Source: Devosia sp. (GTDB taxonomy: Bacteria; Pseudomonadota; Alphaproteobacteria; Rhizobiales; Devosiaceae). From it: a stretch of 64,000 bases of DNA. Shown one piece after another: positions 47,536 through 52,718 of this stretch. Position 1 is the stretch's first letter; each line of letters begins with the position of its first letter. Under the pieces are notes generated by a model that saw only the letters and a list, made by a program, of their open reading frames with translations, did no database searches and was not told the DNA's origin. The translations under genes were made by a program, and so were the position numbers. The stretch spans positions 1 through 64,000 of the forward strand of contig NZ_JACZKG010000012.1 in assembly GCF_014860165.1 (NCBI RefSeq). The letters run 5' to 3'.

Positions 47536-50262
47536 CTAATAGCCGTCGGCGTTATTGCCGACCAGGATTTCGCGCTTGCCGGCGTGGTTGGCCTGGGAGA
47601 TGACGCCTTCGCGCTCCATGCGCTCGATCAGGGTCGCAGCCTTGTTGTAGCCGATGGCGAGGCGCCGCTGGACATAGGAGGTGGAGGCCTTCTTGTCTGA
47701 CAGCACGATATGGACTGCCTTGTCGTAGAGTTCGTCGCCCGAACCGGCATAGTCGTCGCCGCCCGAGGCACCGTCGCCGCCGAATTCGCCGCCTTCGTCT
47801 TCCTCCTCGGTGATCGAATCGAGGTAGTCGGGCTGGCCCTGGCTCTTGAGATGGGCCACCACGGCCTCGACTTCGCTGTCGGCCACGAAGGGGCCGTGCA
47901 GGCGCTTGGTGCGGCCACCCGAGGCCATGTAGAGCATGTCGCCATTGCCCAGCAGCTGCTCGGCGCCCTGCTCGCCCAGAATGGTGCGCGAATCGATCTT
48001 GGACGTCACCATGAAGGAGATGCGCGTGGGGAAGTTGGCCTTGATCGTGCCGGTGATGACGTCGACCGAGGGGCGCTGGGTGGCGGTAATGATATGGATG
48101 CCGGCGGCACGGGCCATCTGGGCGAGGCGCTGGATGGCACCTTCGATGTCCTTGCCGGCCACCATCATCAGGTCGGCCATTTCGTCGACGATGACGACGA
48201 TATAGGGCAAGGGCTCGAGATCGAACTCTTCGCTCTCGAAGATTGCCTCGCCGGTCTCGCGGTCAAAGCCGGTCTGCACGGTGCGGGTGATGACCTCGCC
48301 CTTGGCCTTGGATTCGGTGACGCGCTGGTTGAAGCCGTCGATATTGCGGACGCCGATCTTGCTCATCTTGCGATAGCGATCTTCCATCTCGCGCACGGCC
48401 CATTTGAGCGCCACCACCGCCTTTTGCGGATCGGTGACGACGGGGGTCAGCAGATGCGGGATGCCGTCATAGATGCTCAGTTCCAGCATCTTGGGGTCGA
48501 TCATGATCATGCGGCACTGCTCGGGCGTCATCTGGTAGAGCAGGCTGAGGATGAAGGTGTTGATACCCACCGACTTGCCCGAGCCGGTAGTGCCGGCGAT
48601 CAGCAGATGCGGCATGCGCGCCAAGTCGGCGATGACAGGCTCGCCGCCAATGGTCTTGCCCAGGCAGATGGGGAGCTTGCCCTTCATCTTCTCGAAATCG
48701 GAAGAGGCCAGCATTTCGCGGAAATAGACGGTTTCGCGGACCTGGTTGGGCAGCTCGATGCCGATGGCATTGCGGCCGGGCACCACGGCGACGCGGGCGG
48801 AGATGGCGCTCATCGAGCGGGCGATATCGTCGGCCAGCGAAATGACGCGGGATGATTTGATGCCCGGGGCCGGTTCGAGTTCGAACAGGGTGACCACCGG
48901 GCCGGGGCGGACATTGATGATGTCGCCCTTGACGCCGAAATCGCTCAGCACTTCCTCGAGGCGCCGTGCCATGGCTTCGAGCCGCTCGGGCGCATGCTCG
49001 GGCGACGGGCCAAGATGCTTGGGCTCCGACAGCAGGCTCAGCGGCGGCAGCTCGAAGCCGCCGGGCTCATCGAGGAAGGAGGCCTGGGCCTCGCGCATCA
49101 TGCGCTGGCCGGGCACCGGGCGGGGCGCTGGGGCAGCGACGCGGGGCTTGGCCGGATCGACCGGGTGGAAGCGCGAATCGCCGCGCTGCTGGTGACTGGG
49201 TATGGGCGCCGACGGGGCATCGGGCACAAAGGGGATGTCGTCCTCGGCCTCATCAGGGTAGTCGAGTTCGGTATCGTCGTAGCTGGGCCGGGCATTGATG
49301 CGGGGCGAGATTTCAGGCTCGGCCGCGAAGGCCGGTTCGACGGGGGCGTGAATACGGCGCGCTTGGGGCGGGGCGACGGAGGGCTCGCGCCGTTCGGCCA
49401 CAGGGCCGTGACCATCCAGGCTCGGCTCGACCTCGTCGTCGCGCCAGCTGGCGGTCTCGGCGGCCCGACGCTCGGCATGGTTGGCGCGGGCGCGGCGGAA
49501 CGCGGTGCGCAGCGAATAGCCGGTATGGACGACGGCGCCGAGCACGATATCGACGATCGGGTTGGTCTCGGGCTCATCAGCTTCGACCGGGGCGGCAGCG
49601 CCCTTGCGACCGGCGGCGGCTGACGCGGGCTTGCGCGGGCCTGTCGGCACCGCGGTGCCCAGGCCCATGGCAATCCAGAAGGCGGCAGTCGCCGGAATGG
49701 CAATGATGATGGCAAACAGCACCGCGGTCACCGCCTGCGGCGCTTCGCCGGTGACGAGCGCGGCCAGTCCGACAAAGCCGTTACCAATGAGGCCGCCAAG
49801 GCCAGTGGGCAGCGGCCAGCTTGCCGGCATGGCAACGAAGGAGAGCACGCCCGCGAGCAGCAGCGTGGCGGCGATCCAGGCCAGCGAGCGCAGGCCCATA
49901 TGGCTGGGCATGCGGCGACGGGCGAAGGCCCAGCCCCACAGAGCGGGCGGCACCAGCAGCGCCAGCGCGGCAAGGCCAAAGACCTGGAATAGCGCATCGG
50001 CGATGGCTGCGCCGGGAAAGCCCAGCCAGTTGGCCGGTGCCTTGGATGTCGCATAGGAGAAGCTCGGATCGTCCACCGACCAGGAGGCGAGAGCGACCAG
50101 GCAGATGCCGACGAGGCCGAGCAGCACCAGACCCACCACGCGCACCGGAATGCGAATCGCCAGAGCCGGCGGCGGCACCGGAGCGGTCCTGGTGGCGCCG
50201 GCGCGCGAGCGCTGCGGCACGGAGCGGATTTCGTCAAGCACTGGCGAGGGAGAACTGGGCAT
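47536..50262 (-). CDS. ftsK: DNA translocase FtsK
   Basis: 4-TM N-terminus; '[27 protein letters not shown]', '[11 protein letters not shown]', gamma domain '[30 protein letters not shown]'. Confidence 0.97.
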
Positions 50263-50369
50263 GGGCGAACTCAATACTTGCCCGGCTGAGACCGGGCCCA
50301 CATTGCCGCCATGCTAGAGCGATCGGGTTAACCCAAGGCTAACCATGGGTGTTGGGAGGGGCCTCTTTA

Positions 50370-50488
50370 CCTCTCCCTTCGGGGAAAGGTCGGAGCGAAG
50401 CGACGGGTGAGGGGCCTTTTCTCGGCTCGATGTTGGGGGAAGGCCCCTCACCCGACCCAATAGGTCGACCTCTCCTCCGAAGGGAGAG
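50370..50488. repeat. Intergenic inverted repeat (CTCTCCC family)
   Basis: cctctcccttcggggaaaggtcg...gggtgaggggcctt ... aaggcccctcaccc...cgacctctcctccgaagggagagg. Confidence 0.85.
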
Positions 50489-50490
50489 GT

Positions 50491-50526
50491 GAAGAAAGAA
50501 ACGGCCCGCTTCCGGAGAAGCGGGCC
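50491..50526 (-). terminator. Rho-independent terminator distal to amtB
   Basis: Minus strand GGCCCGCTT ctccgg AAGCGGGCC GTTTCTTTC. Confidence 0.85.
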
Positions 50527-50571
50527 AGGGGGACCGCGCGGGTCGCGAGGGAGAGCGTGCCGCGGGTAAAG

Positions 50572-50665
50572 ACGTTGATCGTGGAGTGCGGCCCGTGCAG
50601 TTTTGCGAGTGGGAAGCCTCTGTGGCGGGCCAAGAGGGGCACGAGCCGCACGCCACGATCAACGT
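50572..50665 (-). repeat. Long inverted repeat in amtB 3'UTR
   Basis: 27-nt arms (50572-50598 and 50639-50665) with two mismatches, 40-nt loop. Confidence 0.92.
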
Positions 50666-50734
50666 TCGCATGATCCTTGAGTCGACCATGCGAGGGAGAG
50701 GCGGGCGGCGCGGACGCCGCCCGGAAAGTCGGAC

Positions 50735-52096
50735 TTAGTTGTAGGCGCGTTCGCCGTGGCTCGAGAGATCCAGGCCATCGCTTTCGCTCGATTCGGGGAC
50801 GCGGGCGCCGCCGAAGATGGCCTTGACGATGAGCATGGCGACCAGGGCAACCACACCCGACCAGACCACGGCGATGCCGACGGCAGTGAGCTGGATCATG
50901 AACTGGCCAGTGATCGAGTATTCCTCGGCAACGCCCAGCGGATAGCCGCCGAGGCCGGGAGCGGCAACGATGGCGGTGCCCAGGGCACCGACGATACCGC
51001 CGACACCATGGATGCCGAACACGTCGAGGCTGTCGTCATACTTGAGCATGGGCTTGAGGTTGACGACTGCCCACAGGCAGACGATGCCGGCAACGGCGCC
51101 GAGCACGATGGCGCCACCGATACCGGCAAAGCCGGCAGCAGGGGTGATGGCCACGAGGCCGGCAACGGCACCCGAGACAGCGCCCAGGGCCGAAGCATGG
51201 CCGCGGGTGACCTTTTCGCCGATAGCCCAGGCCAGGGCCGCAGCAGACGGCGCCAGGATGGTGTTGATCAGGGCGACGGCAGTCAGCGAATTGGCCTCAA
51301 GGTTGGAGCCGGCGTTGAAGCCGAACCAGCCGAACCACAGCATGCCGGCACCGACAAAGGTCCAGACCAGGTTGTGGGGAGCGATCGGCTCCTTCATGTA
51401 GCCCAGGCGCGGGCCAAGCACGATGGCGGCGACGAGTGCGGCCACACCGGAATTGATGTGAACCACGGTACCGCCGGCGAAGTCATAGGCGCCCATGCCG
51501 AACAGCAGACCAGGGCCGGCCCAGACCATGTGGGCGATCGGCAGATAGGAGAAGGTGAACCAGATGGCGAGGAACGTCAGCAGCGCGCCGAACTTCATGC
51601 GCTCGGCGATGCCGCCGACGATGAGGGTGGCAGTGATGCAGGCGAAGGTCATCTGGAAGGCCACGAACACCATTTCAGGCAGCTCGAAACCAGCCGAGAA
51701 GGTGGCGGCGGTGGATTCGAGCGTGACGCCCGACAGGAAGAACTTGGAGAAATCGCCGATGAAGGCCGAGAGGCCGCCTTCGGTGGGGCCGGCAAAGGCC
51801 AGCGAGTAGCCGTAGGCAACCCAGAGGATGGCGATCAGCGAGAAGCCGAGGAACACCTGGGTCAGCACCGAGAGGATATTCTTGGCGCGGACCAGGCCGC
51901 CATAGAACAGGGCGAGGCCCGGCACGGTCATGAAGATCACGACCATGGTGCAGACCATCATCCAGGCGGTGTCACCCTTGTCGACAACGGCCGCGGCTTC
52001 TTCAACGACGGGCGCGGCAGCGTCCTGGGCAAATGCGGGCAGGGCCAGCAGGAGGGAGGCGAGTGCGACGCTTCCCAAAATCTTTGACGTCTTCAT
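50735..52096 (-). CDS. amtB: Ammonium transporter
   Basis: 'DTAWMMVCTMVVIFMTVPGLALFYGGLVRAKN', 'FDFAGGTVVHINSGVAALVAA', 'GIHGVGGIVGALGTAI'. Confidence 0.97.
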   Translation of the reverse strand: MKTSKILGSVALASLLLALPAFAQDAAAPVVEEAAAVVDKGDTAWMMVCTMVVIFMTVPGLALFYGGLVRAKNILSVLTQVFLGFSLIAILWVAYGYSLAFAGPTEGGLSAFIGDFSKFFLSGVTLESTAATFSAGFELPEMVFVAFQMTFACITATLIVGGIAERMKFGALLTFLAIWFTFSYLPIAHMVWAGPGLLFGMGAYDFAGGTVVHINSGVAALVAAIVLGPRLGYMKEPIAPHNLVWTFVGAGMLWFGWFGFNAGSNLEANSLTAVALINTILAPSAAALAWAIGEKVTRGHASALGAVSGAVAGLVAITPAAGFAGIGGAIVLGAVAGIVCLWAVVNLKPMLKYDDSLDVFGIHGVGGIVGALGTAIVAAPGLGGYPLGVAEEYSITGQFMIQLTAVGIAVVWSGVVALVAMLIVKAIFGGARVPESSESDGLDLSSHGERAYN

Positions 52097-52117
52097 CTGT
52101 TTTTCTCCCGATGACGC

Positions 52118-52456
52118 TTAGAGGGCAGCCGCGCCGGTTTCACCGGTACGGATACGGGTGACGGCAAGCAGATCGAGCACGAAGATCTTGCCATCGCCGA
52201 TGCGACCGGTCTGGGCGCTGTCGCGGATGGCGGTGCTCACGGCATCGGCGAGCGCGTCATCAACGGCGATCTCGACCTTGAGCTTGGGCAGGAAGTGCAC
52301 GGCATATTCGGTGCCGCGGTAGATTTCCGAATGCCCCTTCTGGCGGCCATAACCCTTCACCTCGGTCACGGTCATGCCGTGAACGTCGAGTGAGTTGAGA
52401 GCCTGGCGAACCTCTTCGAGGCGTGATGGCTTGATAATTGCGATCACCAGTTTCAT
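52118..52456 (-). CDS. glnK: P-II family nitrogen regulator
   Basis: MKLVIAIIKPSRLEEVRQALNSLDVHGMTVTEVKGYGRQKGHSEIYRGTEYAVHFLPKLKVEIAV; directly upstream of amtB. Confidence 0.97.
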   Translation of the reverse strand: MKLVIAIIKPSRLEEVRQALNSLDVHGMTVTEVKGYGRQKGHSEIYRGTEYAVHFLPKLKVEIAVDDALADAVSTAIRDSAQTGRIGDGKIFVLDLLAVTRIRTGETGAAAL

Positions 52457-52718
52457 GTGAGCCCCTTTGCGCTTGGCGCTTGTCTGGAATGGCAAACTAG
52501 ACTCAAGCGCCGTGCCAGTTGGACAGCACCCCTAAAATCCGCATGAATTCAAAGGGTTAACGATTTGAAAATCGATCCTGCGCGTGCGGCCCAACCGAAA
52601 TGCGTAATTATTGTGCATTTCTGGACCGAGTTGAACAAATATGAAGCAGCGCCGCGGCGATCCGCGCGCTTGCGCAAAACGACAGCAGGACCACAATAGA
52701 ACTCCAAGGAGACCGGAG

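Follow-up and report, generated by a model that had tools for sequence, protein, structure and literature searches.

The glnK-amtB operon is typically expressed under nitrogen limitation via NtrC, and the RNA that follows its last gene in a Devosia sp. genome was predicted, from the letters of the DNA, to form three hairpins and was proposed as a candidate source of a nitrogen-linked small RNA. This raises the question of whether a conserved RNA is indeed encoded behind amtB and, if so, how it would act. We examined the locus within a contig stretch of 64,000 nucleotides (the window), where the following features were assigned.

52502..52518, minus strand: sigma-54-type promoter CTGGCACGGCGCTTGAG, 5' of glnK, found by pattern match
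52119..52456, minus strand: glnK, PII protein, its ATG at 52456 set by a tblastn match
50735..52096, minus strand: amtB, ammonium transporter (PF00909)
50703..50722, minus strand: hairpin H1, GGGCGGCG-TCCG-CGCCGCCC, straight after the amtB stop, with no T-run at the window copy
50667..50692, minus strand: extra hairpin GCATGGTC/GATCATGC between H1 and the element, found by folding
50573..50664, minus strand: conserved structured RNA element (EL), composed of P1, a 1x1 mismatch, P2, an apical P3 and a long 3' joining strand
50491..50527, minus strand: intrinsic terminator GGCCCGCTTC-TCCG-GAAGCGGGCC with a T-rich tail (stem 50527-50502)

All three hairpins of the original prediction were found downstream of the amtB stop on the minus strand at the positions it gave, but a fourth, at 50692-50667, had been overlooked; this extra hairpin is absent from the flanks of the other loci inspected. 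The long hairpin has 27-nt arms (50572-50598 and 50639-50665) that match at 93% (25/27) and a 40-nt loop that holds a CCTCT/AGAGG pairing. The folding energy of the hairpin region is −135.8 kcal/mol, compared to a mean of −87.1 (sd 4.5) for shuffled sequences (z = −10.9), and none of the 200 shuffles reached it. The terminator is the sole terminator-like site in 50200-52700. As predicted, the region contains no convincing ORF: an ORF of 116 aa (50339-50689) is unsupported, and the possibility that it represents a small coding gene was ruled out because the length of the element, 83-93 nt in Devosia, shifts by single bases. The genome of the window has one amtB and one copy of the element, and the nearest named amtB outside this genome is that of Devosia nitrariae (79% identity).

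Just downstream of the amtB terminator, at 50368-50490, lies a REP-like palindromic repeat of about 123 nt (CCTCTCCC...GGGAGAGG arms), which has 67 BLAST matches in the same genome on both strands, about 20 of them near full length. Upstream of ftsK, the minus-strand motif TTAGCCTTGGGTTAA (50328-50342) resembles a CtrA half-site pair, TTAA-N7-TTAA, and most of the Devosia loci inspected have a motif of this kind in front of ftsK. Another dispersed-looking repeat (CCATTCGAGC(T/C)TAGCTCTCATGGCC...) is located close to the element in loci L139, L153 and L166.

The element itself spans about 91 nt, and the window copy scores 104 bits against the covariance model of EL. From 5' to 3' it consists of P1 (10 pairs), a 1x1 mismatch, P2 (12 pairs), mostly 0-2 nt, P3, and a joining strand of 15-18 nt. 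Its parts on the minus strand of the window are as follows.

50653..50662, minus strand: P1 5' strand, paired with 50575-50584
50640..50651, minus strand: P2 5' strand, of which the basal GUGC is nearly invariant while the upper part covaries
50617..50637, minus strand: P3 apical hairpin, CCUCUUGG-cccg-CCA(c)AGAGG
50603..50616, minus strand: joining strand CUUCCCACUCGCAA, unpaired and nearly invariant, leading from P3 to P2
50586..50597, minus strand: P2 3' strand
50575..50584, minus strand: P1 3' strand

The P1 sequence has been swapped wholesale between lineages with its pairing retained, and in other genera both the sequence and the length of P3 are changed, again with retained pairing. Only the joining strand stays almost constant; it reads CUUCCCAC(U/G)C(R)C-AA in nearly invariant form in 65 diverse copies; its nearly unchanging unpaired stretch measures 14 nt and is kept across 10 genera. 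The original prediction had drawn attention to the long stem of this hairpin; it overlooked that conservation extends to the loop as well. The element carries a conserved aptamer-like fold, as expected of a riboswitch-type RNA, and a conserved unpaired seed, as expected of a small RNA derived from a 3'UTR.

To judge pairing, we made use of two alignments. In a plain MAFFT alignment, which was not fitted to the model, compensatory changes were observed in 15 of the 22 pairs of P1 and P2, and 96% of the cells pair as compared to 34-49% when the partners are slid. When 65 diverse copies were aligned with the covariance model, an alignment that consequently leans to that model, compensatory changes were found in 22/30 pairs of all three helices, with 94.8% of the cells paired versus 33-46% when slid. 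On the amtB sense strand there are 114 G-U cells versus 27 A-C cells, and the covariance model gives 104 bits in sense versus 39 bits in antisense. The excess of G-U over A-C and the higher sense score show that the molecule that folds is an RNA in the amtB direction.

A lack of conservation among relatives and of compensatory changes in the stem would have counted against the original prediction, but both were clearly observed. Of the 75 genomes of the genus, 69 were matched in a DNA search, over the long hairpin but not over its flanks. A covariance model built on 72 element copies detected the element in 10 of the 16 genera of the Devosiaceae-like family and in 105 of its 136 genomes; kinship among the copies inflates such counts. 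The conserved unit is restricted to the long hairpin, and hairpin H1 and the terminator, which had been named along with it, lie outside. Searches at the level of the order and the class used stricter filters that can miss weak matches: in 398 genomes of the order a single weak match was obtained outside the family (G226, 35.7 bits), and in 385 genomes of the class the element was not detected in the 384 other than the window's own. The G226 match was rejected as a chance palindrome, since both strands score alike and amtB is not nearby. No convincing element was seen near amtB of 13 other bacteria, no plasmid was matched in a plasmid search, and a hit to an 18-nt core on a viral contig was attributed to chance, as the structure is missing there. 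The element matched no Rfam family up to E = 5, five divergent element loci gave no Rfam match up to E = 1, and the open papers searched together with Rfam describe no such RNA for the Devosia group. Apparently, the element represents a previously undescribed RNA family. In one reduced genome (G097, 2.0 Mb) glnK and amtB are broken and the element is without some P2 and P3 pairs; at this locus (L152) the whole glnK-amtB-element unit is apparently decaying together.

The association with amtB is strict. In the loci examined, the core motifs were found just 3' of amtB and on the same strand in 91 of 91 cases, at 83-302 nt from the amtB match (median 106), and none of the searched genomes had an element apart from amtB. 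It is also present behind an amtB paralog of only about 30% identity. The gene downstream of the element varies between ftsK, a second glnK and a second amtB, which indicates that the element is tied to no single downstream gene. Upstream of glnK, the sigma-54-type motif TGGCAY-N5-TTGN was present in 112/112 cases, ending 39-71 nt before the ATG, as compared to 122 matches overall in the 647 kb examined. Expression under nitrogen limitation is expected from this promoter. Based on the present sequence data, the conserved hairpin with its 14-base strand points to a nitrogen-linked regulatory RNA.

In most loci H1 lies within about 10 nt of the amtB stop; its sequence is variable, and it is present both in loci that have the element and in loci that lack it. 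A run of at least five T follows H1 in 5 of the 80 loci with the element versus 8 of the 26 loci without it. Since the T-run is mostly missing in element loci, it is plausible that RNA polymerase reads through H1 into the element. In the loci inspected the element itself has no T-run after it, and in the window a separate terminator lies downstream, so that the element does not qualify as an intrinsic terminator with a stem and U-run of its own. A strict terminator-like hairpin was found downstream of the element in 31/80 loci, which means that the canonical 3' end of an Hfq-type RNA is not shared by all of them. Some loci have no other clear terminator.

Many family members have tandem glnK-amtB-glnK-amtB loci with two very different AmtB paralogs of about 30% identity. 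In loci such as L119, L122, L126, L134, L156, L160, L206 and L210, each glnK has its own sigma-54-type promoter. In one genus (g29; L202, L205 and L220) a second, distant amtB without its own glnK follows the element, and in L202 a short ORF (MSLKDKAKFIDFPAIALVV...) comes after the distant amtB and element. At least one element is present in 79 of 83 classified loci. Where amtB2 is the sole amtB, the element is located behind it in 46 of 49 loci; where amtB1 already has an element, amtB2 has one too in only 4 of 22. Usually, one amtB of a tandem locus keeps the element, and which one does so varies by lineage. On the amtB2 tree, the state behind amtB2 switches between presence and absence of the element at least 10 times, and about 4 of 6 independent pairs go in the opposite direction and almost none in the same direction. 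With these 6 independent pairs, the tree-corrected sign test did not reach significance (median p = 0.125). The distribution suggests that a single element per locus suffices, whichever amtB bears it. Action in trans accounts for this more easily than separate cis elements of the individual amtB genes would, and the tandem loci thus favour an RNA from the 3'UTR that acts in trans rather than one that serves a single amtB in cis. Four loci are element-free, and these retain amtB and H1 and belong to genomes of good completeness, which indicates that the element is not essential.

The genome contains a gene for Hfq, and we also searched for antisense partners of the joining strand. Across the genus, perfect 12-nt complements of this strand at sites other than the element were about as frequent as those of a reversed control. 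A 14-mer search of the window's own genome with 2 mismatches allowed gave no shared target. GTGGGAAG followed by ATG at 3-13 nt was found at 42 sites in three genomes, none of them before a shared gene. Together with the control rate of the 12-mer, this does not support antisense action at translation starts through the joining strand; shorter seeds or sites elsewhere are possible. In some strains CCCUCUUGGC can pair with the glnK ribosome site GCCAAGGGGG over at most 10 pairs. We rejected this as a generic anti-SD likeness because other genera have AAAGGAG and P3 varies. Of the predicted nitrogen-linked small RNA, the structure, the conservation and the nitrogen linkage are thus borne out computationally, but a conserved antisense target was not found.

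Several known RNAs invite comparison. Glutamine riboswitches (the glnA RNA and the downstream-peptide RNA) are structured and linked to nitrogen genes, but they are 5' leader elements, whereas the present element sits 3' of amtB and has no Rfam match. For the same reason of location, and because the downstream gene differs between lineages, it does not fit a classical riboswitch, which would be a 5' leader with an expression platform for the next gene. GlnZ of Enterobacteriaceae is released from the glnA 3'UTR by Hfq and RNase E, and its target sucA has been demonstrated (PMC9731577). Like GlnZ, the element lies in the 3'UTR of a nitrogen-assimilation mRNA and has a conserved core in an otherwise variable RNA, but gene, clade and structure differ and its conserved strand lies inside a long stem-loop. 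NfeR1 of rhizobia (alpha-r14) carries CCUCCUCCC on each of its three hairpins and is made as a separate transcript, under activation by LsrB and repression by NtrC (PMC10746234). It shares with the element an alphaproteobacterial origin, a link to nitrogen and a C-rich unpaired motif that is ultraconserved although the stems displaying it vary. However, the element consists of one conserved hairpin with the motif CUUCCCACUCGCAA within the amtB 3'UTR, has no Rfam match and is without the three CCUCCUCCC hairpins, so it was not assigned to alpha-r14. On the features compared, the element falls outside both GlnZ and alpha-r14 and represents a new family. AbcR1/2 sRNAs have a C-rich unpaired CUCCCA motif (PMC5461406), with which the element has the letters UCCCA in common, but the locus is another and there is no Rfam match. 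As only five letters are shared, this is a weak lead; with the motif CUUCCCAC and no match up to E = 5, the element was rejected as an AbcR member.

How would the element act? Our main reading, to which we assign a probability of roughly 45%, is a Devosiaceae-specific regulatory RNA from the 3'UTR of the glnK-amtB mRNA that acts in trans. The element would be made as the 3' end of a sigma-54-dependent glnK-amtB mRNA, and thus probably under nitrogen limitation. Its rigid P1-P2 stem and capping P3 would hold out the unpaired strand CUUCCCACUCGCAA. Whether freed from the mRNA or still attached to it, the element may use this strand to bind another RNA or a regulatory protein as its partner, and so couple nitrogen status to other functions. 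The interchangeable host amtB, the Hfq gene and the GlnZ precedent support this reading, and it is weakened by the missing conserved target, the non-significant tree test, the terminators in only 31/80 loci and the decay in G097. The main rival is a cis-acting element of the same mRNA, where a protein or small ligand would bind the invariant joining strand and thereby set mRNA stability, localisation or read-through to the next gene, like a riboswitch or a protein site. The confinement of the element to amtB, its ornate fold, the resemblance of the invariant unpaired strand and the invariant basal part of P2 to binding sites, and the lack of a conserved antisense target all agree with this. 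We nonetheless regard it as the less probable, if still tenable, explanation, since most amtB2 of tandem loci are without the element while solitary amtB2 keep it, the downstream gene varies, and the four element-free amtB loci still have H1. It is rather unlikely that the element represents a new class of nitrogen-status sensing RNA, in which the joining strand would bind a metabolite or signalling protein at the 3' end of the message; any one glnK-amtB transcript in the cell may then act as sensor or decoy.

The very stable fold, its position after amtB and the loci without another clear terminator could also reflect a passive 3' end, whose hairpins merely stop RNA polymerase or block 3'-5' exonucleases. 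This we consider improbable, because stability alone leaves the near-invariance of a 14-nt unpaired strand in 10 genera unexplained, H1 and the terminators are free to vary in sequence, the element lacks a subsequent T-run wherever its loci were inspected, and element-free loci exist. Far less probable still is a feature acting as DNA, such as a palindromic repeat, a mobile element or a regulator binding site. The REP-like dispersed palindrome does adjoin the element, and in tandem loci the element lies upstream of the second glnK promoter. However, such palindromes are dispersed whereas the window genome has one element copy, plasmids gave no match and the single viral match was due to chance, P1 differs in sequence between lineages yet remains paired, and the G-U pairs mark one strand; indeed, this strand-specific wobble already contradicts a DNA-level role.

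Taken together, a central nitrogen operon harbours a strongly covarying RNA family that is apparently undescribed. Its nearly invariant 14-nt strand provides a precise handle for a partner search, and the tandem loci are natural experiments on the sufficiency of one copy. If the RNA does act in trans, expression of the ammonium transporter would double as an RNA signal to the cell at large.
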